Shown: positions 2,618-22,765 of the stretch, piece after piece
How the letters are laid out: every line of letters begins with the position of its first letter
Position numbering within the stretch: position 1 is the stretch's first letter
Assembly (NCBI GenBank): GCA_945903545.1
Contig: CAMDOO010000033.1
Coordinates: forward strand, 1 to 34,278
Direction of reading: 5' to 3'
Length of the DNA: 34,278 nucleotides
DNA from: Opitutus sp. GAS368
GTDB taxonomy: Bacteria; Verrucomicrobiota; Verrucomicrobiia; Opitutales; Opitutaceae
The notes under the pieces: generated by a model
Seen by the model: the letters and a program-made list of their open reading frames with translations, nothing else
Database searches by the model: none
What the model was told of the DNA's origin: nothing
Program-made: the position numbers and the translations under genes

Positions 2618-4270
2618 ATGAGATCGTTACTGTGTTGCCTTGCCACGTTCAGCTTTCTTCAGACCGTCCCGGCCTTCTCGGCCGAGACTGACTACTTTCA
2701 GATCGAGCCGGGATTCGTCTCGCTCTTCAACGGCCGCGATCTCACGGGCTGGGGTTACCCCGGCGCGCCGGCCCAGAGCTTCGACGGTCTCACAGCCAGT
2801 CCTGACGGGCGCTATGAAGCGAAGGACGGCCTGCTCCGGGTGAACGATCGCTTGCCGCGGTTGCAGCAGCAGCTCGCGACGTTGCAATCGCTGCCGGCCA
2901 ACTGCGTGATCCTGATGGAGTTTCGGCCGATGCAGTGGACCGACGGCGGCGTGTTCGTGCGTGGCACCCAGCTTCAAGTTCGCGATTTTCTCACGGTGGG
3001 GCCTTACTACGACCTGCTGCACCACCGCACGCAGGAATGGAACACACTGGAGATTTATATGCAGGGACCCTGGGTCTTTGCCTCCTCCAATGGTGAGGTG
3101 CTGGAACCTTCGTTTCGTGTTTCCGCGACCGGCGGGCTTGGCTTCGAAGCTGACCTTGGCGTGATGGACTATCGGCGCATCCGCGTGAAGGAGCTGCCGG
3201 CCGGCGGTCCGACGGTGCCCACGGCCATGCCTGCTCCGGCCACCCGGCCCAATCTCGCGGTCCTAGACCGGCCAATCCGCGTGGCAATCTTGGGCGACGA
3301 GATTGGCCAGCCATTTCCCGGGGCGACCAACGGAACGACCCCGCGCGGCGGAATTCAGCTGGCGGACGTGTCTGCCCGTCAGTTGGCGGCGGTGAGAGCG
3401 ATGGCCGCGGCCCCGCAGCGGGCCCTGCAGGATGTGAACGCGGCGCGCGCTGCGGTCGCGACGGCCAGCCTGTCGGCGCCGTCGGAAATCAACTCCCGGG
3501 TCGCGGCGCTCGGCGAGGCCGAGCTTGCCCTGGCGAAACAGCGGGCGGATCTGTGGATTTGGCTCCAAGCCTCGCCCCAAAGGCTGAACCCCGCGGCAGT
3601 GTCCGCACTGGTTCCGCAGGCCAACCTTCCGCCGCTCACCGGTCGAGGCAGCACCAGTCTCTCCGGAGCCGCGCTGCCAGTGGGTCGCGGAGGCGCTCCC
3701 AGCGGTCCGGCTCAGCTGGGTCCGCCGGACAACCTCGCCCCCCGCACGGACTTGGCGAGCAATCTGTCCCGGCAACTCGGGCCGCGCTGGGACGTGCGCA
3801 ATTTCGCCATTCCCGGCACTACGGTCCAGAAAGGCGGTGACAACTCGGTTTGGGGGCAGCCCGCGCTGACGGCCGCCCTCGATTTCAATCCTGATGTCGT
3901 CGTGATTCTGTTCGGCACGAACGATAGCAAGGCCGAGAACTGGCGGGGTGCGGCGGCCTTCGAGGCCGATTACCGCGCGCTGGTGACGACATTCGCCGCC
4001 GGCGCGGCGCGGCCGGGGTTTTTCCTGGCCAAGCCGTCGCCGGCCTTCACCGGCGCGGGCGGGGTTGATGAGAAGCTGCTGGCCGGCGACATCTCTGGCC
4101 GAATCGAGGCCATCGCCCGTGCCGTCGGCGGCACGGTGGTCGACCTGCACGATGCCCTGAAGGATGCAGCGAACCTCACCCTTGATGGCGTTCATCCCGA
4201 CGCCGAAGGCGCTTCCCTGATCGCCGCACGGGTGCAGGCGGCCTTGGCGCCCCTCGCCACCGGACGGTGA
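2618..4270 (+). CDS. exported DUF1080 (3-keto-disaccharide hydrolase-like) and SGNH-fold fusion with helical insert
   Basis: The 550-residue protein begins with a signal peptide (about 1-21). A DUF1080/PF06439 jelly-roll follows at about 28-195 (FVSLFNGRDLTGW, GGVFVRG, WNTLEIY, GLGFEAD), a family linked to hydrolysis of 3-keto-glycosides. Residues 220-545 form an SGNH/GDSL hydrolase: block II glycine in NFAIPG (G400), block III GTND (433-436), block V DGVH (D523, H526). Block I reads ILGDEIG, so the usual nucleophilic serine of GDS is glutamate 228 and esterase activity is doubtful. About 120 residues separate block I from the next conserved strand. They contain an Ala-rich helical module (252-345) shared with three other exported proteins here, then an RG-rich tract. 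Start: ATG directly before the signal peptide, no Shine-Dalgarno. Confidence 0.85.
   Translation: MRSLLCCLATFSFLQTVPAFSAETDYFQIEPGFVSLFNGRDLTGWGYPGAPAQSFDGLTASPDGRYEAKDGLLRVNDRLPRLQQQLATLQSLPANCVILMEFRPMQWTDGGVFVRGTQLQVRDFLTVGPYYDLLHHRTQEWNTLEIYMQGPWVFASSNGEVLEPSFRVSATGGLGFEADLGVMDYRRIRVKELPAGGPTVPTAMPAPATRPNLAVLDRPIRVAILGDEIGQPFPGATNGTTPRGGIQLADVSARQLAAVRAMAAAPQRALQDVNAARAAVATASLSAPSEINSRVAALGEAELALAKQRADLWIWLQASPQRLNPAAVSALVPQANLPPLTGRGSTSLSGAALPVGRGGAPSGPAQLGPPDNLAPRTDLASNLSRQLGPRWDVRNFAIPGTTVQKGGDNSVWGQPALTAALDFNPDVVVILFGTNDSKAENWRGAAAFEADYRALVTTFAAGAARPGFFLAKPSPAFTGAGGVDEKLLAGDISGRIEAIARAVGGTVVDLHDALKDAANLTLDGVHPDAEGASLIAARVQAALAPLATGR
3371..3652 (+). other. shared helical module, copy 1 (in the SGNH domain)
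   Basis: Residues 252-345 of the fusion protein. Landmarks in order: AARAAVATASLSAP, ALGEAELALAKQRAD, LQASPQRLNPAAV, then TGRG. The ARxA(V/L)-to-RAD distance is 36 residues, the same as in copy 2. The predicted shape is two amphipathic Ala-rich helices and a short third helix. The function is unknown. Confidence 0.75.
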
Positions 4271-15406: not shown

Positions 15407-16657
15407 ATGAAAATCCGTACGCTCGTGCTAGCGGCGCTTGCCGCTCTCCCCGTCTTCGGCCTCGCGGCCGAACCCAAGCGCGTCCTGGTCGTCGGCGCCT
15501 CCGTAGGCTTCCGGCACGGCTCGATCCCCAACACGGAGAAGCTGCTTCGGGACCTCGCGGCCAAGTCCAATGGCGAGTTCACGGTCACGATGATGTCGGA
15601 CGCACCCGACTATCCGTTCCCCCGCGTGCAGTCCCCGCTGGGTACGACCGGCACAAATGGCGGTCTCGGCGCACCCACGGGATTCCCCGGCACCATCCCG
15701 GGAGCGAGCGCTGAACTGCAGGCCGCCATCGGCAACGCCGCCGGCCCCCGCATGCCTGCCCTGGGCACGGTCACCGCGACGGCGCACACCGCCCTCGTGG
15801 AAGCCAGCTTCAGGACCCCATCCCAAATTGGGGCCCTGGCTTCCGCCTTGGCCACCGCCGAAACCAGCTTGGCGATGGCGCGGGCCGACGCCCTCTCACG
15901 CCTGCAGGCGTCCGCCAACCGGATCACCCCCGCCCAAATCCAAAACCTCGCCGGCAACTTTCCTCCGGCCGCGGGCCGCGGCGGAGCGAATCAAAACCAG
16001 GTCCTCGCCGGGATCTTCCAGACCTTCATGGGACCCGAGGCGCTCAAGAACTACGACGCCATCGTGTTCGTCAGCACCACCGGCAACCTGCCCATACCGG
16101 ACGAAAAAGCATTCCTCGACTGGGTGGCGGCCGGTCATCCCGTGATTGCGCTGCATGCCTCCATGGACCGGGGTGCCGCCACGTCGGATGCGCAGATGGA
16201 GATGCTCGGCGGCGGTGCCCGGTTTGCGGGCCATCCAGGCAACGGCAACCTCCCCCGGAAGATCTACAAGGTTGATGCCACGCACCCGGCCACGAAGGAC
16301 TGGCCGGACGGGGTCGCCATCGTCGACGAGTACTACCAGTTCTACCATATGGGCCCCAGCGGCCGCACCCCCGGGGTCGACTGGAGCAAGGTGCATTCGC
16401 TGCTCGACATGGACTTCGAAGGCACGCGGATGCCGGTGGCTTGGACGAAAATGCACGGCAACGGCCGCGTCTTCTATACCTCGCTGGGTCACCGCGATGA
16501 CGTGGTCCTCCCCTTCGTCAACAACCTCGACTACGGCTACGAGCGCGAAAACGGCAACTGGATCGCACTCGCCTACCAGAAGCACCTGCTCGAAGGCATC
16601 CGCTGGGCGCTCGGTTTCACCGAGGGCGACAGGACCCTCGGCAACCATCCGAAATAA
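15407..16657 (+). CDS. exported ThuA-like protein with internal helical module
   Basis: The 416-residue protein has a signal peptide (about 1-21) and a ThuA fold split in two. The first strand region (RVLVVGASVGFRHGSI) and EFTVTMMSD come before the insert. NYDAIVFVSTTGNLPIPDEKAF, GHPVIALHASMDR, VDEYYQF, PVAWTKMHGNGRVFYTSLGH and LLEGIRWALG follow it. Residues 101-193 are the helical module and RG tail shared with three other exported proteins. ThuA-like domains are usually about 220-280 residues, so the extra length is the insert. It lies 142 bases after its paralogue and probably shares expression. Enzymatic role unknown; context suggests sugar or keto-sugar turnover outside the cytoplasmic membrane. 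Confidence 0.85.
   Translation: MKIRTLVLAALAALPVFGLAAEPKRVLVVGASVGFRHGSIPNTEKLLRDLAAKSNGEFTVTMMSDAPDYPFPRVQSPLGTTGTNGGLGAPTGFPGTIPGASAELQAAIGNAAGPRMPALGTVTATAHTALVEASFRTPSQIGALASALATAETSLAMARADALSRLQASANRITPAQIQNLAGNFPPAAGRGGANQNQVLAGIFQTFMGPEALKNYDAIVFVSTTGNLPIPDEKAFLDWVAAGHPVIALHASMDRGAATSDAQMEMLGGGARFAGHPGNGNLPRKIYKVDATHPATKDWPDGVAIVDEYYQFYHMGPSGRTPGVDWSKVHSLLDMDFEGTRMPVAWTKMHGNGRVFYTSLGHRDDVVLPFVNNLDYGYERENGNWIALAYQKHLLEGIRWALGFTEGDRTLGNHPK
15707..15985 (+). other. shared helical module, copy 2 (in the ThuA fold)
   Basis: Residues 101-193 of the second ThuA-like protein. Landmarks: AHTALVEASFRTP, ALATAETSLAMARADA, LQASANRITPAQIQNL, then AAGRGG. The A(R/H)xAL-to-RAD distance is 36 residues, as in copy 1. 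Confidence 0.8.
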
Positions 16658-16690
16658 GCGGGGTCGATAGCTTGCTCTTCCGCCGCACCC

Positions 16691-16833
16691 AACGTTCGGT
16701 ACTGTCCTGATTTCCGGTAGGGCGGCGACTCCGCTCGCCGCCGGCAATGCCTCCGGCTCCGCATCAACTCGCAGGAAGCCATGGCGCGGAACGGAGTCCG
16801 CGCCCTACCGAAATCAGGACACAACCAAACGTT
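16691..16833. repeat. REPIN-like element: two inverted GTAG-headed REPs within long inverted arms
   Basis: REP 1 on the plus strand (16717-16742) is GTAG, then GGCGGCGA, CTCCGC, TCGCCGCC. REP 2 on the minus strand (16783-16808) is GTAG, then GGCGCGGA, CTCCGT, TCCGCGCC. Both stems are perfect 8-mers and the loops differ by one base. Outside them the arms keep pairing imperfectly (AACGTT, then TGTCCTGATTTC, mirrored on the right), so the whole 143-base element can fold. A GTAG head plus palindrome is the known signature of RAYT-mobilised REP sequences. No RAYT gene is in the window. The rest of 16658-16947 has no gene. Confidence 0.7.
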
Positions 16834-16901
16834 CAGGGACAGATCCGAGGTGCAATGCGCAGTTCCGACTGCCGTCCAAAATGGCGCAGCGATTTTGGCT
16901 T

Positions 16902-18341: not shown

Positions 18342-20141
18342 ATGAAGCCTTACGTCCGCCTCGGAATACCCTTGATCGCCGCCGCGCTTTTGTTCGGTTT
18401 CGCCACCTCCATGGGTCAACCTGCCCCCGGCGGAGCCGCCGCCCCGGTTGCCGCCCCAGCCGGTGGAGCCGCGCGGGGTGGCGGTGCAGCTGGCGGAGCC
18501 GCGCGCGGTGGTGGCCCTCTGGGTGGCCCCGTGGGTGCCATCAACGCCACCGCTGCGTCGCTCTTTACGGCGAGCTGTGCCGGCTGCCATGGCACCGGCT
18601 TGGAAGGCGCCCGGGCAAAGAGCCTCTTCAATAAGGATTGGCTGGGGACGGTCGACGACGCCCGCATCACTAATGCGATCAAGAATGGTGTGCCCAATAC
18701 CGAGATGGTGGCGTGGTCGCAGTACACAGACGAGCAGGTCTGGCAGCTGGTGACCTACATCCGGCAGGCGACGGCCACGGCCAATCCGCGGCCGCCCTAC
18801 AACGACACGCCGGACGGCCTGGTGATCAAATCGGAGAAACAGACTTTCAAGGTGGAGGTCCTGTCCACGGATCTCTTCACGCCGTGGGGGCTGGCATTTT
18901 TGCCCGACGGCCGGTTGCTGGTCACTGAGCGCAAAGGCACGATCCGGATTCTCGACAAGAACAACGTCCTCTCCGCCCCGTTGAAGAACACGCCGACGCC
19001 GCACGTGCAGCAGGACGGCGGCTTCCTCGACATCGAGGTCCACCCGAACTACGCGCAAAACGGCTGGATTTACCTGGCGTATTCCGAAGTCGAGCCCCTG
19101 CAGGCGAAGGTCGCGCCGCAGGCAAACGCGGTGGCCACCGCGCGGACCGCCCTCGCCGCCGCCACCTTTACCGTGCCGCTGAACGACGCGGCCGTCAGGC
19201 AGGCCGTTGACGCGCTCGGCAACGCCGACCTCGCCCTGGCCCGCGCCCGCGCCGACGCATTTGCCGCGATGCAGGCAGGCCAGGGAAGGCTGAGTGCCGC
19301 CCAGTTGCCAGGCTATATCACAATGAACTCCGCGCCCGCGGCCGGCCAGCCACCCTCGCTGACGGTCTGGGTCCGCGGCAAGATCAACGCGGCCAACGAG
19401 TGGACCAGCCAGGAAACCGTGGCGCGTTTTCCGGGGAACCTGTACACCAACTCCGGCACTCACTTCGGTTCACGATTCCTCTTCGACACGACCGGACATC
19501 TCTTCTTCACGATCGGCGAGCGCGGCCAGGTAACCAACGCGCAGGATCTCTCAATCCCGCTCGGCAAGGTTCATCGGATCAACGACGACGGCACCATTCC
19601 CCGCGACAATCCGTTTGTGAATACGCCCGGTGCCATTGCGTCGATTTGGACCTATGGTCACCGCAACCCTCAAGGGCTGGCGTGGGAGCCCGGAACGGGA
19701 ACCCTCTGGGAGACCGAGCACGGTCCGACCAACGGCGATGAGGTCAACATCCTCGTCAAGGGCCACAACTACGGCTGGGGTGTCGTCACCAAGGGCTCGC
19801 AGGGCGGCATCACGAAGACTTCCGAACCGGGCATGGACGATCCGATCGTCTACTACATACCCACGCTGGCGCCGGCCGGCATCACGTTCTACACGGCCAA
19901 CCGCTATCCCAACTGGCGCAACACGAGCCTATTCGTCGGTGGACTGGCCGGCCAGCGCCTGATGCGGCTCGAAGTGGCAAACGGGAAGGTCACCCATCAG
20001 GAGGAGATCTTCAACACCCTCGGCCGCGTGCGCGACATCGCCATCGGCCCCGACGGCTTGTTCTATATCGCGCTGCAGAGCCCGGGTCCGCAGCTGGCGG
20101 CCGATACCGCGGGCAAACTGATACGGCTGCAACCGCAGTAA
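18342..20141 (+). CDS. exported cytochrome c / Asd-type (PQQ) sugar dehydrogenase fusion with helical insert
   Basis: The 599-residue protein has a signal peptide (about 1-25), an Ala/Gly/Arg-rich tract (about 41-64) and a small cytochrome c domain (67-146; heme site C79-A-G-C82-H83, likely Met ligand 122). A glucose/sorbosone-dehydrogenase beta-propeller follows: FTPWGLAFLPDGRLLVTER, HVQQDGGFLDIEVHPNY, GTHFGSRFLFD, GHRNPQGLAWEP, ETEHGPTNGDEVNIL, NYGWG. Such enzymes use PQQ to oxidise aldoses to lactones and pass electrons to cytochromes, here their own heme. Residues 251-337, in a loop after the strand WIYLAYSEVE, are the helical module. ATG 18342 directly precedes the signal peptide. It heads a trio with the mutarotase (5 bases on) and the lactonase. 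The sugar is not known. Confidence 0.88.
   Translation: MKPYVRLGIPLIAAALLFGFATSMGQPAPGGAAAPVAAPAGGAARGGGAAGGAARGGGPLGGPVGAINATAASLFTASCAGCHGTGLEGARAKSLFNKDWLGTVDDARITNAIKNGVPNTEMVAWSQYTDEQVWQLVTYIRQATATANPRPPYNDTPDGLVIKSEKQTFKVEVLSTDLFTPWGLAFLPDGRLLVTERKGTIRILDKNNVLSAPLKNTPTPHVQQDGGFLDIEVHPNYAQNGWIYLAYSEVEPLQAKVAPQANAVATARTALAAATFTVPLNDAAVRQAVDALGNADLALARARADAFAAMQAGQGRLSAAQLPGYITMNSAPAAGQPPSLTVWVRGKINAANEWTSQETVARFPGNLYTNSGTHFGSRFLFDTTGHLFFTIGERGQVTNAQDLSIPLGKVHRINDDGTIPRDNPFVNTPGAIASIWTYGHRNPQGLAWEPGTGTLWETEHGPTNGDEVNILVKGHNYGWGVVTKGSQGGITKTSEPGMDDPIVYYIPTLAPAGITFYTANRYPNWRNTSLFVGGLAGQRLMRLEVANGKVTHQEEIFNTLGRVRDIAIGPDGLFYIALQSPGPQLAADTAGKLIRLQPQ
19092..19352 (+). other. shared helical module, copy 3 (in a propeller loop)
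   Basis: Residues 251-337 of the cytochrome-dehydrogenase. Landmarks: ARTALAAATFTVP, ALGNADLALARARADA, MQAGQGRLSAAQL, then APAAG. The ARxAL-to-RAD distance is 39 residues, as in copy 4. The usual RG tail is replaced by a short Ala/Gly stretch, perhaps because the protein has an RG-like tract near its N-terminus. Confidence 0.8.
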
Positions 20142-20146
20142 TCCCG

Positions 20147-21388
20147 ATGAAGGATTTCAAATTTCAAATTTCAGATTTGAGGATGGGCCTCGCCGCGGCG
20201 TTCGTGCTGGTGCTGGCCGCCGCGGCGAGCGCCCAGCCATACTCCGCGGTCAGGACCGGGAATGTCATTGAGCTGAAGGATGCCCGGGCGGAGATGGTCG
20301 TACCGGTCGTCATCAACGTGGGCCGGCCATGGCGGATCCAGGTGAAGGGCAAGGATCTGGTCAGACCCGGGGCCTCGGCCGAGGCGTTTGAAAACGCTCC
20401 CGGCCTGAACGGCATGCCGCTGCTCGCCCCGTTTGCGAATCGTATCGACCAGACCGCCTTCTACGCCAACGGCAAGAAGTACAATTTCGACGTGGAGTTG
20501 GGCAACGTCCGAGGCCCGATTCCCAGCACCGGCTTTGTTGGCGGCTACAAGGGATGGGAACTCGTGGATTCCAAGGCCGACGCGACGGGCGCGTGGGCGA
20601 TGTGCAAGCTGGATTTCTACAAGAACCCGGCGTTCATGAAGCAGTTCCCGTTCGCGCACACGATCACGATCACCTACCGCGTGGCGAACGGCACACTGGA
20701 GGTCAGGACCCGGCTCGACAATCTGAGTTCGGATCCGATGCCGGTGGTGATCGGTTATCACCCAATCTACGAGTTGCCCGAAGGCAACCGCGACGACTGG
20801 ACCGTGTCGCTGGATGCGAAGACGCACTGGATCGAGATCCCTGAACGGCTGCCGACCGGCGAGACGCAGCCGATCGAGAACTTCTTCGGTTCGGACCGCA
20901 CGGCGATCCAGCTCAAGAAATACGGTTTGATCGACGATGTGTTCACCGACCTTGTCCGGGATGAGAATGGCCGTGCGACCATGAAGCTCATGTACAACGG
21001 CAAGGAACTGCACGCAATCCTCGGGCCGAAGTACAAGACTGTGCTGGCCTGGTCCACCGCGTTGCCGGCGGGTGGCGGTGGTGGGCGGGGAGGCGGGGGT
21101 GGCGGTGCTCGCGGTGGCGCCGGTGGACGGGGCGGCGGCGCGGCGCCGGCGGCTTCCGGTCCATTTCCCGTCGATCCGGCCAACGGCACCAAGGTCGCGC
21201 CGCCGGCCGTTCCGCGGGCCGAGGGCGCCCCGGCGCCCACGACCAAGGGCTTCATTGCCTTTGAACCGATGGTCGCAATCACCAATGCCCTGAATCTTTC
21301 CCAAACGGGAGTTTACAAGGAATTGCAGAGCGTTCCCCCAGGCGGTTCCTGGGAAGAAAGCTTTTGGATCACAACGAAAGGGTACTGA
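20147..21388 (+). CDS. exported aldose 1-epimerase (galactose mutarotase-like) with RG-rich insertion
   Basis: The 413-residue protein has a signal peptide ending at about ASAQ (30) and a galactose-mutarotase-like beta-sandwich: PFANRI (95-100), GFVGGYKGWEL, H205 in GYHP, and E373 in FEPMVAITNALN, matching the acid and base positions of the family. An almost pure Gly/Arg tract (309-331) and a Pro/Ala linker are inserted just before the strand bearing the catalytic glutamate. The enzyme would interconvert alpha and beta aldoses, supplying the anomer the neighbouring dehydrogenase needs. The first codons are a heptamer repeat; ATG 20183, directly before the hydrophobic core, is an alternative start. 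The gene follows the dehydrogenase by 5 bases. Confidence 0.85.
   Translation: MKDFKFQISDLRMGLAAAFVLVLAAAASAQPYSAVRTGNVIELKDARAEMVVPVVINVGRPWRIQVKGKDLVRPGASAEAFENAPGLNGMPLLAPFANRIDQTAFYANGKKYNFDVELGNVRGPIPSTGFVGGYKGWELVDSKADATGAWAMCKLDFYKNPAFMKQFPFAHTITITYRVANGTLEVRTRLDNLSSDPMPVVIGYHPIYELPEGNRDDWTVSLDAKTHWIEIPERLPTGETQPIENFFGSDRTAIQLKKYGLIDDVFTDLVRDENGRATMKLMYNGKELHAILGPKYKTVLAWSTALPAGGGGGRGGGGGGARGGAGGRGGGAAPAASGPFPVDPANGTKVAPPAVPRAEGAPAPTTKGFIAFEPMVAITNALNLSQTGVYKELQSVPPGGSWEESFWITTKGY
20154..20181 (+). repeat. heptamer repeat at the start of the mutarotase gene
   Basis: Four 7-base units follow one another: ATTTCAA, ATTTCAA, ATTTCAG, ATTTGAG. They lie between ATG 20147 and ATG 20183. Either they are translated as an odd N-terminal KFQISDL extension, or the true start is 20183 and the array is a leader. 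Confidence 0.6.
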
Positions 21389-21394
21389 CTAAAT

Positions 21395-22765
21395 ATGAAC
21401 ACGACTCGACTTCTGATTGCCGGCTTGGTTTTCGCCTCAGCTTGGCCGCTCGCTTCTCTCGCGCAACCGGCCGCGGCGCCCGCTCCGCTGGTCCCGCTGA
21501 ACGCGCCGCAGTTTGCGGCCGTCTCGGCAATGAACGCCGCACTCGCGCCCCTCAATCAGGCGCTGACCACCGCCCGGGACGCCCTGACCGCGGTCTCCCT
21601 CACGCTGCCGGCCAATGCCCAGGATATCAGTGCGAAGGCGGATGCCGTCGCGCGCGCTGACCTCGCCATTGCCAACGCGCGCGCCGCCGCGATGCCACAG
21701 TTTCAATCGGGGACCAACCGGTTGAGCGCGGCGCAGATCCAGAACCTGCTTACACCCGCCGGCCGCGGCGGCCGCGGCGGCGCGCCGGCGCCTCTGCCCC
21801 CGACCGTCTCACCTGGTGCCGTCGTCGAAAAGCTCGCGACCCTGCCGCGCGAAACGTACACGGTCGGCATGCCCTTCACCGAGGGCGCCACCAGCGCGCC
21901 CAACGGTGACGTTTATTTCGTCGAGCAGAACAGCAGCAAGATCATGAAGTGGAGCGTGGCCGACAAAGCCCTGTCGGTGTTCATGCATCCGGCCGGCTAC
22001 GCCAACGGCATGTCTTTCGACTACAAGGGCAACCTGATCGTCTGTGCGGATGAACGGAATGAGCTTTGGTCGGTTTCGTTGACCGAAAAAGAGACCATTC
22101 CATATCCCGCACCCCTTAATCCCGCGGGGGGCGATCCGGATCGCCCGGCGACGCTCACGCGGCCGAAAGTCACCTTACTGATGAACGGCAGTTACAACGG
22201 GAAGCTGCTCGGCGGCCCGAATGATGTCTGGTGCGCGCCCAACGGTGACATCTATTTCACTGACCCGCATTACGGGCGCAGTTGGTGGAATCCCGCAAAC
22301 CGGCCGACCGAGCAGGATCAGCGCACCGTATATTTCCTTTCCGCGGACCGAAAGACCTTCAAGCGCGCTGTCCCCGACTTCAACAACGTCGCCGGCGTGG
22401 CGGGCATGCCGAACGGCATCATCGGCACGAAGGACGGAAAAACCCTCTATGTCGCCAACATCAATGGCGGGGAAACCTACGGCTACGATATTCAGCCCGA
22501 CGGATCGCTCACCAACAAGCGCGTGGTCTGTCATTCCGGTTCCGACGGCATGACCCTCGACGATCAGGGCAACCTGTATATGAGCAGCGGCGGTGTCTCC
22601 GTGTATAGCACGAAGACCGGCCAGCTGATCGGCGTCATTCCCGTGCCCGAAGGCCCTGCGAACGTGGCTTTCGGCGGCCCGGACCACAAGACCCTCTACA
22701 TCACCGCCCGCACTGGATTCTACTCCATCCCGACCAACGTCAGGGGAGAGAACCCTGGGAAATAG
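21395..22765 (+). CDS. exported SMP-30/gluconolactonase-like protein with N-terminal helical module
   Basis: The 456-residue protein has a signal peptide (about 1-24), then at once the helical module (37-129) and an RGGRGG tail. The SMP-30/gluconolactonase propeller follows: FTEGATSAPNGDVYF with metal-ligand E163, GPNDVWCAPNGDIYFTDPHYG with the family Asn, FNNVAGVAGMPNGI and GSDGMTLDDQGNLY with the family Asp. These calcium enzymes hydrolyse aldonolactones to aldonates. As third gene of the exported trio (6 bases after the mutarotase) it would open the lactone made by the PQQ dehydrogenase. The propeller is of normal size and appears uninterrupted, so here the module is an N-terminal addition. 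Confidence 0.87.
   Translation: MNTTRLLIAGLVFASAWPLASLAQPAAAPAPLVPLNAPQFAAVSAMNAALAPLNQALTTARDALTAVSLTLPANAQDISAKADAVARADLAIANARAAAMPQFQSGTNRLSAAQIQNLLTPAGRGGRGGAPAPLPPTVSPGAVVEKLATLPRETYTVGMPFTEGATSAPNGDVYFVEQNSSKIMKWSVADKALSVFMHPAGYANGMSFDYKGNLIVCADERNELWSVSLTEKETIPYPAPLNPAGGDPDRPATLTRPKVTLLMNGSYNGKLLGGPNDVWCAPNGDIYFTDPHYGRSWWNPANRPTEQDQRTVYFLSADRKTFKRAVPDFNNVAGVAGMPNGIIGTKDGKTLYVANINGGETYGYDIQPDGSLTNKRVVCHSGSDGMTLDDQGNLYMSSGGVSVYSTKTGQLIGVIPVPEGPANVAFGGPDHKTLYITARTGFYSIPTNVRGENPGK
21503..21781 (+). other. shared helical module, copy 4 (N-terminal to the SMP-30 propeller)
   Basis: Residues 37-129 of the lactonase. Landmarks: ARDALTAVSLTLP, AVARADLAIANARAAA, FQSGTNRLSAAQIQNL, then PAGRGGRGG. 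The ARxAL-to-RAx distance is 39 residues. RLSAAQIQNL is nearly identical to RITPAQIQNL of copy 2. Confidence 0.8.

Follow-up and report, generated by a model that had tools for sequence, protein, structure and literature searches.

An 87-residue segment that interrupts a predicted dehydrogenase of Opitutus sp. GAS368 is one copy of a domain, by predicted fold a helical hairpin, that is found in frame in dozens of unrelated proteins of a single genus. A sequence-only reading of the DNA analysed here (34,278 nucleotides; hereafter the window) had picked out this segment as an insertion. The insertion was confirmed, and the dispersed, genus-wide family to which it belongs goes beyond that reading. 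No paper listed in searches of the open-licence PMC literature describes the module in its title or the opening lines of its abstract.

Insertion of the module in a GSDH/Asd-type dehydrogenase

By profile and by predicted fold the protein carrying the segment (P0001, Table 1) is a GSDH/Asd dehydrogenase of the PQQ type, for which PQQ binding and sugar oxidation are predicted. The Pfam family GSDH is matched at 4e-105 (352 bits against a cut-off of 25) in two stretches, the better of which covers residues 343-579, and the cytochrome c domain is recognised by Cytochrome_CBB3 (2e-12, residues 69-140) and Cytochrom_C (9.5e-8, residues 72-143). A Foldseek search with the model of P0001 returned the Asd protein of E. 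coli (YliI, 2g8s; E 9.3e-34, TMt 0.89) and PQQ glucose dehydrogenases including 7cdy. The propeller and the sequence family are common to all of these, whereas the 2g8s and 7cdy chains are about 350 residues long and lack the N-terminal cytochrome c of P0001. In the sequence alignment with 2g8s, residues 168-251 of P0001 pair with 7-91 and residues 370-581 with 126-343 as separate matches, and 118 residues of P0001 stand opposite 34 at the place of insertion. The motifs HFGSR, RNPQG, EHGP, NYGW and GRVRD that follow the insertion align with HFGGR, RNPQG, EHGP, NYGW and QRIRD of 2g8s and fall in conserved columns of our homologue alignment (A4); we take them to have catalytic roles in GSDH/Asd enzymes. 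These motifs, together with a propeller that AlphaFold predicts to be intact, support the earlier suggestion that the enzyme tolerates the insertion.

Table 1. Module copies and host dehydrogenase in the window.
Feature	Position	Strand	Remarks
Module copy 2, in an exported 3-keto-disaccharide-hydrolase-like + GDSL protein (ORF 2618-4270)	3362..3625	+	
Module copy 3, in an exported ThuA-like protein (ORF 15407-16657)	15698..15964	+	Lies before the stretch of the fold that Pfam matches (profile 43-191)
Exported cytochrome c - GSDH/Asd-type PQQ dehydrogenase (P0001), predicted, module-bearing	18342..20141	+	599 aa
Cytochrome c domain, about residues 69-147	18546..18782	+	Pfam
Propeller part 1, residues 161-250, last element blade strand B	18822..19091	+	AlphaFold and 2g8s alignment
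Inserted module copy 1, residues 251-337	19092..19352	+	87 aa, in frame
Helices of module copy 1	19095-19166 and 19185-19274	+	AlphaFold
Propeller part 2, residues 338-599, first element strand C	19353..20138	+	AlphaFold and 2g8s alignment
Module copy 4, N-terminal in an exported SMP-30/SGL protein (ORF 21395-22765)	21491..21763	+	

That a long loop is standard in the whole family was ruled out by an alignment of 80 rows, comprising P0001, its orthologue in the congener G002 and 78 further homologues (a partial sequence, L157, a duplicate, L111, and identical copies were left out). The stretch from WIYLAY to VWVRG spans 7-18 residues in 76 of these rows and the insertion is therefore real and non-standard; it spans 94 residues in P0001 and 106 in the G002 orthologue, the module being absent from the other 78 rows. 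The idea that a short turn joins the flanking strands in family members thus holds for the 76 rows but not for the two nearest relatives without the module, an MAG labelled Caulobacterales (L113, 28 residues) and Acidobacteria bacterium SCN 69-37 (L112, 36 residues). Both have a Pro/Ala-rich linker at the insertion site, and the loop of L112 includes a GRGRG run. Most copies open with an LTxxQ-like stretch; copy 1, which begins near residue 251, lacks it.

The AlphaFold2 model of P0001 was built from 42 sequences, leaving out module-only rows, which were misaligned (7-17% identity). Mean pLDDT is 81.4, with values below 50 at residues 4-66, 323-325 and 327-333; ten-residue blocks of the propeller mostly reach 90-98 (a few 78-87) and those of the module 48-83. 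Two module helices (252-275 and 282-311) lie between strands 243-250 and 339-348. The strand order of this blade is A 228-233, B 243-250, C 339-348 and D 353-361, which makes the module the B-C loop of the model and agrees with the earlier proposal that it projects from a blade loop. Propeller topology places B-C and D-A loops together on one face. Since the D-A loop of P0001 carries His374, which we take to be the equivalent of His144 of sGDH, the hairpin probably rises on the PQQ-pocket face. Such a position would suit a local regulatory lid or an electron-transfer spacer specific to the dehydrogenase. However, the same domain occurs in hosts with no recognised PQQ or heme domain (ThuA, GDSL, esterase), and we regard a role of this kind as very improbable.

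A dispersed domain family found in one genus and a sister genus

A profile built from the segment and two similar stretches brought to light the fourth copy in the window. Searched as protein, the 87-residue segment by itself matched 37 places in its own genome at E<=10. A profile of 27 copies likewise hit 37 places in this 3.08-Mb genome (G000), all at E<=1.3e-10 and free of stops, with nothing between that value and the limit of E<=1; four of the 37 lie within the window. Two congeners, G001 and G002, whose genomes are 92% and 75% complete, hold 26 and 24 copies, and the other 26 relatives searched hold none. Altogether the three genomes of the genus contain 87 copies in 87 ORFs, one module per ORF, and no stop was seen inside any of the 87.

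In a wider search, which sampled 200 genomes from 49 genera of the family, matches were confined to the three species of the genus, G034 and G084. G034, of a sister genus, has two copies in one stand-alone exported ORF (L228:1114-2223), which consists of the two modules and Gly/Arg-rich linkers only; directly downstream lies an exported protein that, from its translation, resembles the dehydrogenase/DUF7133-type hosts. The G084 match is weak (0.006) and its protein reads as coiled-coil-like. Among 387 genomes of the phylum, our own aside, there were three weak matches, the best being a Spy-family protein of G479. The weak matches of G084, G377 and G278 and the Spy protein of G479 are left out of the copy counts. 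At most 26 candidates per genome were scored in the family search and at most 13 in the phylum search, so that a divergent copy elsewhere could be missed. G000 also has a stand-alone exported copy, a 198-aa open frame (C35).

Host proteins

At the threshold used, clustering of the 87 hosts without their modules yields 27 homology groups and 35 site clusters. The 37 hosts of G000 form 22 groups without detectable homology at that threshold and about 28 site clusters; the clustering may split some equivalent sites. Pfam scans of 43 of the 87 hosts (all 37 from G000 and six of the other 50) identified ThuA, 3-keto-disaccharide hydrolase, GDSL lipase, DUF7133 with HEAT and cytochrome c, GSDH, SGL, esterase, alpha/beta-hydrolase, AP_endonuc_2 barrel, FGE-sulfatase, YNCE-like propeller and DUF6797 types, with GH28 in the congener G001; several hosts had no Pfam match at E<=0.001. 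A home-made hydrophobicity heuristic, run without control proteins, found a signal peptide in 34 of the 37 G000 hosts, and the remaining three were judged exported by eye, one having a Tat-signal match just under cut-off. Apparently, then, all 37 are exported.

The site of the module varies even among hosts of one type. In ThuA-type proteins it lies mid-fold in the window protein, whereas in C12 it precedes the entire domain and in C32 it is C-terminal; C12 belongs to the homology group of the window protein but to another site cluster, and C32 forms part of a separate homology group. In the GDSL hydrolase C28 the module comes shortly after the GDSITFGSG block. The GDSL parts of the window host at 2618-4270 and of L179:69-1802 read GDEI/GDDI where their C28 paralogue has GDSI, and both may have lost the GDSL nucleophile.

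The composition of this set bears on one alternative, in which the module is a docking or assembly tag by analogy with dockerins: by binding each other, or a receptor, the hairpins would bring together exported enzymes that oxidise or hydrolyse sugars, with the stand-alone proteins of one or two modules as cross-linkers. Many hosts are indeed sugar-acting or redox types (3-keto-disaccharide hydrolase, ThuA, GSDH, SGL, DUF7133 with cytochrome c, AP_endonuc_2), the sister genus has its exported two-module protein, and alanine-rich amphipathic hairpins would suit coiled-coil pairing. The FGE-sulfatase-like, esterase and GH28 hosts, however, do not obviously belong to one pathway. A single module in each of the 87 ORFs is what a tag would predict, but by our estimate few double insertions would be expected by chance when a few insertions are spread over many exported genes, and we therefore give this point little weight.

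Linkers and an empty site

GRG-type words (GRG, RGG, GGG, RGA) occur within 30 aa upstream of the module in 26 of the 37 G000 copies and downstream in 27. Thirty-two copies have one on at least one side and 21 on each; among control pieces taken from these hosts the figure is 38 of 425. Five of the 37, the dehydrogenase copy included, have no such word within 30 aa on either side.

One host offers a candidate empty site. The esterase G000:C13 contains a module. Its counterpart in G001, which shares 84% identity with it over residues 176-453, has a linker rich in Ala, Gly and Arg at that place. Matches to the esterase in six genomes of other genera start at residue 168 or later in five cases and at residue 38 in G003 (the module occupies 86-176), and none of these six genomes has a module match. 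From these sequences, gain in G000 and loss in G001 are not distinguishable with certainty. Other comparisons were less informative: an SGL relative without module in G001 is 58-59% identical and may be a paralogue, the contig of the G001 counterpart of G000:C7 ends at the module edge, and the host G000:C4 had no match in the four genomes tried. Within the window, the ORF at 20147-21388 encodes an aldose-epimerase-like protein with a long Gly/Arg-rich linker and no module; this is possibly an empty linker of the module-carrying kind.

Selection and age of the module

We compared modules and hosts in 45 reciprocal-best pairs, after dropping pairs with fewer than 40 aligned module codons; at least one pair (C77/C167) is probably paralogous. 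In all 45, pN is lower than pS within the module. Mean identity over pairs is 67.4% in the module against 79.0% in the host, with dN 0.250 against 0.148 and pS 0.449 against 0.443. The module is under purifying selection, which is looser than that on its hosts.

The module of the orthologue is the closest module of the other genome in 43 of the 45 pairs, and for 22 of the 37 G000 copies a congener has a reciprocal-best orthologue that also bears the module. Between copies from different host groups mean identity is only 35.5%, third codon positions being 42.5% identical. These data fit a module that spread early in the genus and has since been inherited along with each host, less tightly constrained than the host itself. 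No recent copying between hosts was seen. The closest cross-group pairs of modules involve stand-alone, small or contig-end-truncated proteins, for which host homology is not scorable. This divergence also bears on the docking tag, as a shared receptor would restrain it, and we consider such a tag, though conceivable, somewhat unlikely.

The same figures weigh on the possibility that the module is a tolerated passenger, that is, a harmless coding segment in the linkers of exported proteins that is folded only to avoid aggregation and brings its host no benefit. Its location mostly beside linkers, the weaker constraint, the star-like divergence and the one orthologue without module (the G001 esterase) are all as a passenger would have them. 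Nevertheless, a passenger would hardly be expected to remain free of stops in every copy and to have pN below pS in every pair, nor to be retained in the orthologues of 22 G000 hosts when the congener genomes are themselves incomplete. We judge this possibility unlikely.

Comparison with known dispersed elements

At the DNA level the module bears no marks of a palindromic or terminal-repeat element. Its longest inverted repeat averages 9.77 against 9.95 in codon shuffles and its folding z is -0.17 (35 of the 37 G000 copies), and terminal inverted repeats average 7.36 against 7.13 in shuffled sequences (33 of the 37). Direct repeats at the module ends are slightly longer than in shuffles (8.0 against 7.09), as repetitive linkers would give. 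With neither palindromes nor terminal inverted repeats beyond those of shuffles, we reject an RPE- or MITE-type element.

The Rickettsia palindromic element (RPE), as outlined in PMC10969869, is a palindromic element of about 150 bp that is found in frame in many unrelated (metabolic) genes of one lineage. The module shares the in-frame insertion in many unrelated genes and the restriction to a lineage. It differs in being about 270 bp long, in encoding a predicted folded domain rather than a palindrome and in having hosts that are apparently exported. A selfish DNA element of this kind would account for a short, in-frame, lineage-restricted segment, but neither the lack of excess inverted repeats nor a set of hosts that all look exported is in keeping with it, and third codon positions diverged to the extent given above are set against protein-level constraint in the orthologous pairs. 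We find it hardly credible.

PARCEL repeats, in the account given in PMC2996958, are tandem palindromic repeats of 25 residues, amphipathic and dispersed in membrane-targeted proteins of many clades. The module resembles them as an amphipathic coding module dispersed among proteins. In contrast, it is single, non-palindromic and about 90 residues long, and among the genomes searched it was found in one genus and, on its own, in a sister genus.

Predicted fold of the module and possible kinship with Spy/CpxP

Modelled alone from 74 sequences, the module (copy 4) reaches a pLDDT of 91.3 in AlphaFold, with helices at 5-36, 43-71 and 80-87. Its composition is 28.5% Ala and 0.1% His, with no Cys. 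The consensus of 27 copies has TxxQ at the start and RLxxxQ at the end; in that of 74 copies the start motif is reduced to its Q.

Structural searches returned no match to the module at E<=0.001 in Foldseek. ZraP, CnrX and NccX recur among the best-ranked matches, with probabilities of 0.69-0.99 and E of 0.56 and above, but the first rank is taken by an unrelated HR1 domain (0.41), and CpxP stands at rank 40. In VIA-align ZraP (3lay) comes first with Z 8.9, rmsd 2.1 and 77 aligned positions, tied with an unrelated channel; this Z lies within the range of unrelated helical hairpins, others of which come close.

Sequence profiles gave a similar picture. Scanned singly, none of the 27 copies reached a Pfam cut-off and PF07813 was not listed. 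Four of the 27 touch Metal_resist (PF13801) weakly, at no more than 16.8 bits against a cut-off of 29.2, and in the copy that reaches this value DUF2564 scores higher (20.1 bits, cut-off 26.3). The stand-alone module proteins score 19.7 and 15.6 bits with PF13801, against the same cut-off, and a PF13801 search of the whole of G000 matched the stand-alone copy C35 alone (0.0029, under cut-off). A search of PDB sequences with the module profile yielded a single hit, to a SlyX homologue (0.017), and nothing from the Spy family.

The clearest link is the G479 protein (L234, 179 residues), which the module profile finds at E 1.5e-5, the best value among the 387 phylum genomes. L234 passes both Spy-family cut-offs of Pfam (PF13801 and PF07813) and matches CpxP and Spy in the PDB. 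It aligns with the module in hhalign over 81 columns at 79.6% probability, through both LTxxQ motifs. Its score of 25.4 bits compares with at most 8.2 in 2000 shuffles and at most 6.4 in 1993 ORF decoys; the other 12 of 13 Spy-like proteins score no more than 6.9 bits, L234 alone standing above the decoys, and the Spy-like set used as a profile against the module reaches 29% only. Taken together, the match to L234, the LTxxQ-like ends and the predicted fold suggest, but do not prove, kinship of the module with the Spy/CpxP periplasmic chaperones.

Spy, CpxP, ZraP and CnrX are periplasmic helical hairpins with LTxxQ motifs; the module is of similar length and apparently exported, and its predicted hairpin and LTxxQ-like ends may correspond to theirs. 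The module departs from the family in falling below every family cut-off and in its near absence of His and lack of Cys; moreover, Spy/CpxP proteins are free whereas the module is built into other proteins. A metal-binding role like that of CnrX or ZraP is disfavoured by the same composition. A separate Spy-like protein with a long Gly/Arg-rich tail is encoded in G002 (L273:1429-2082; LTXXQ 0.00068, under cut-off).

A candidate origin and role for the module

The explanation that we tentatively prefer, at clearly less than even confidence for the whole, is of a Spy/CpxP-derived hairpin that spread early by way of linkers and acts in cis; the docking tag and the tolerated passenger are its serious rivals. 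A stand-alone periplasmic hairpin of the Spy/CpxP (LTxxQ) type would have given rise to the module. It would then have spread early in the genus by recombination between the GC-rich stretches that encode linkers, rather than as a transposable element; as no recent transfer between hosts was seen, this route rests on the linkers and the one empty site. Finally, and least certainly, the module may be a tethered holdase of the Spy type, or a solubility arm, that aids the folding and solubility of the exported enzyme in which it is embedded; in the dehydrogenase it would rise from the propeller on the PQQ side.

In a bolder and unlikely form, the genus would have tagged dozens of its exported enzymes with a domesticated Spy-like hairpin, either a built-in periplasmic chaperone or a homotypic docking tag, moved by recombination of Gly/Arg-linker DNA with no mobile element involved.

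A complete predicted domain in 22 unrelated groups of exported proteins, with no sign of transposition, would amount to a natural, repeated experiment in domain insertion. The copies show where propeller, ThuA, GDSL and other folds accept a hairpin of 90 residues. The Gly/Arg-rich linkers are suggested as entry points for domains, and the dispersed module makes in-cis periplasmic chaperoning or enzyme docking directly testable.

A precedent for the preferred in-cis holdase is SlyD, in which a chaperone domain (insert-in-flap) lies inside the FKBP enzyme fold; in FKBP12, folding activity increased when a chaperone domain was inserted close to the active site, as summarised in PMC5034536 and PMC11013033. 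The SlyD insert belongs to one host family, whereas the module, whose chaperone role is put forward here as a candidate, is carried by 22 host groups in one genome.

A DNA hairpin in the window

Beyond the ThuA gene, positions 16685-16840 form a strong DNA hairpin (DNA folding z -7.7). We claim no association between it and the module, because the eight other stretches of G000 and G001 in which its parts recur (L158, L168, L169, L170, L172, L207, L213 and L218) were chosen round modules. The recurring parts are 22 to 101 bases long, and the hairpin is perhaps a member of a MITE/REP-like family.
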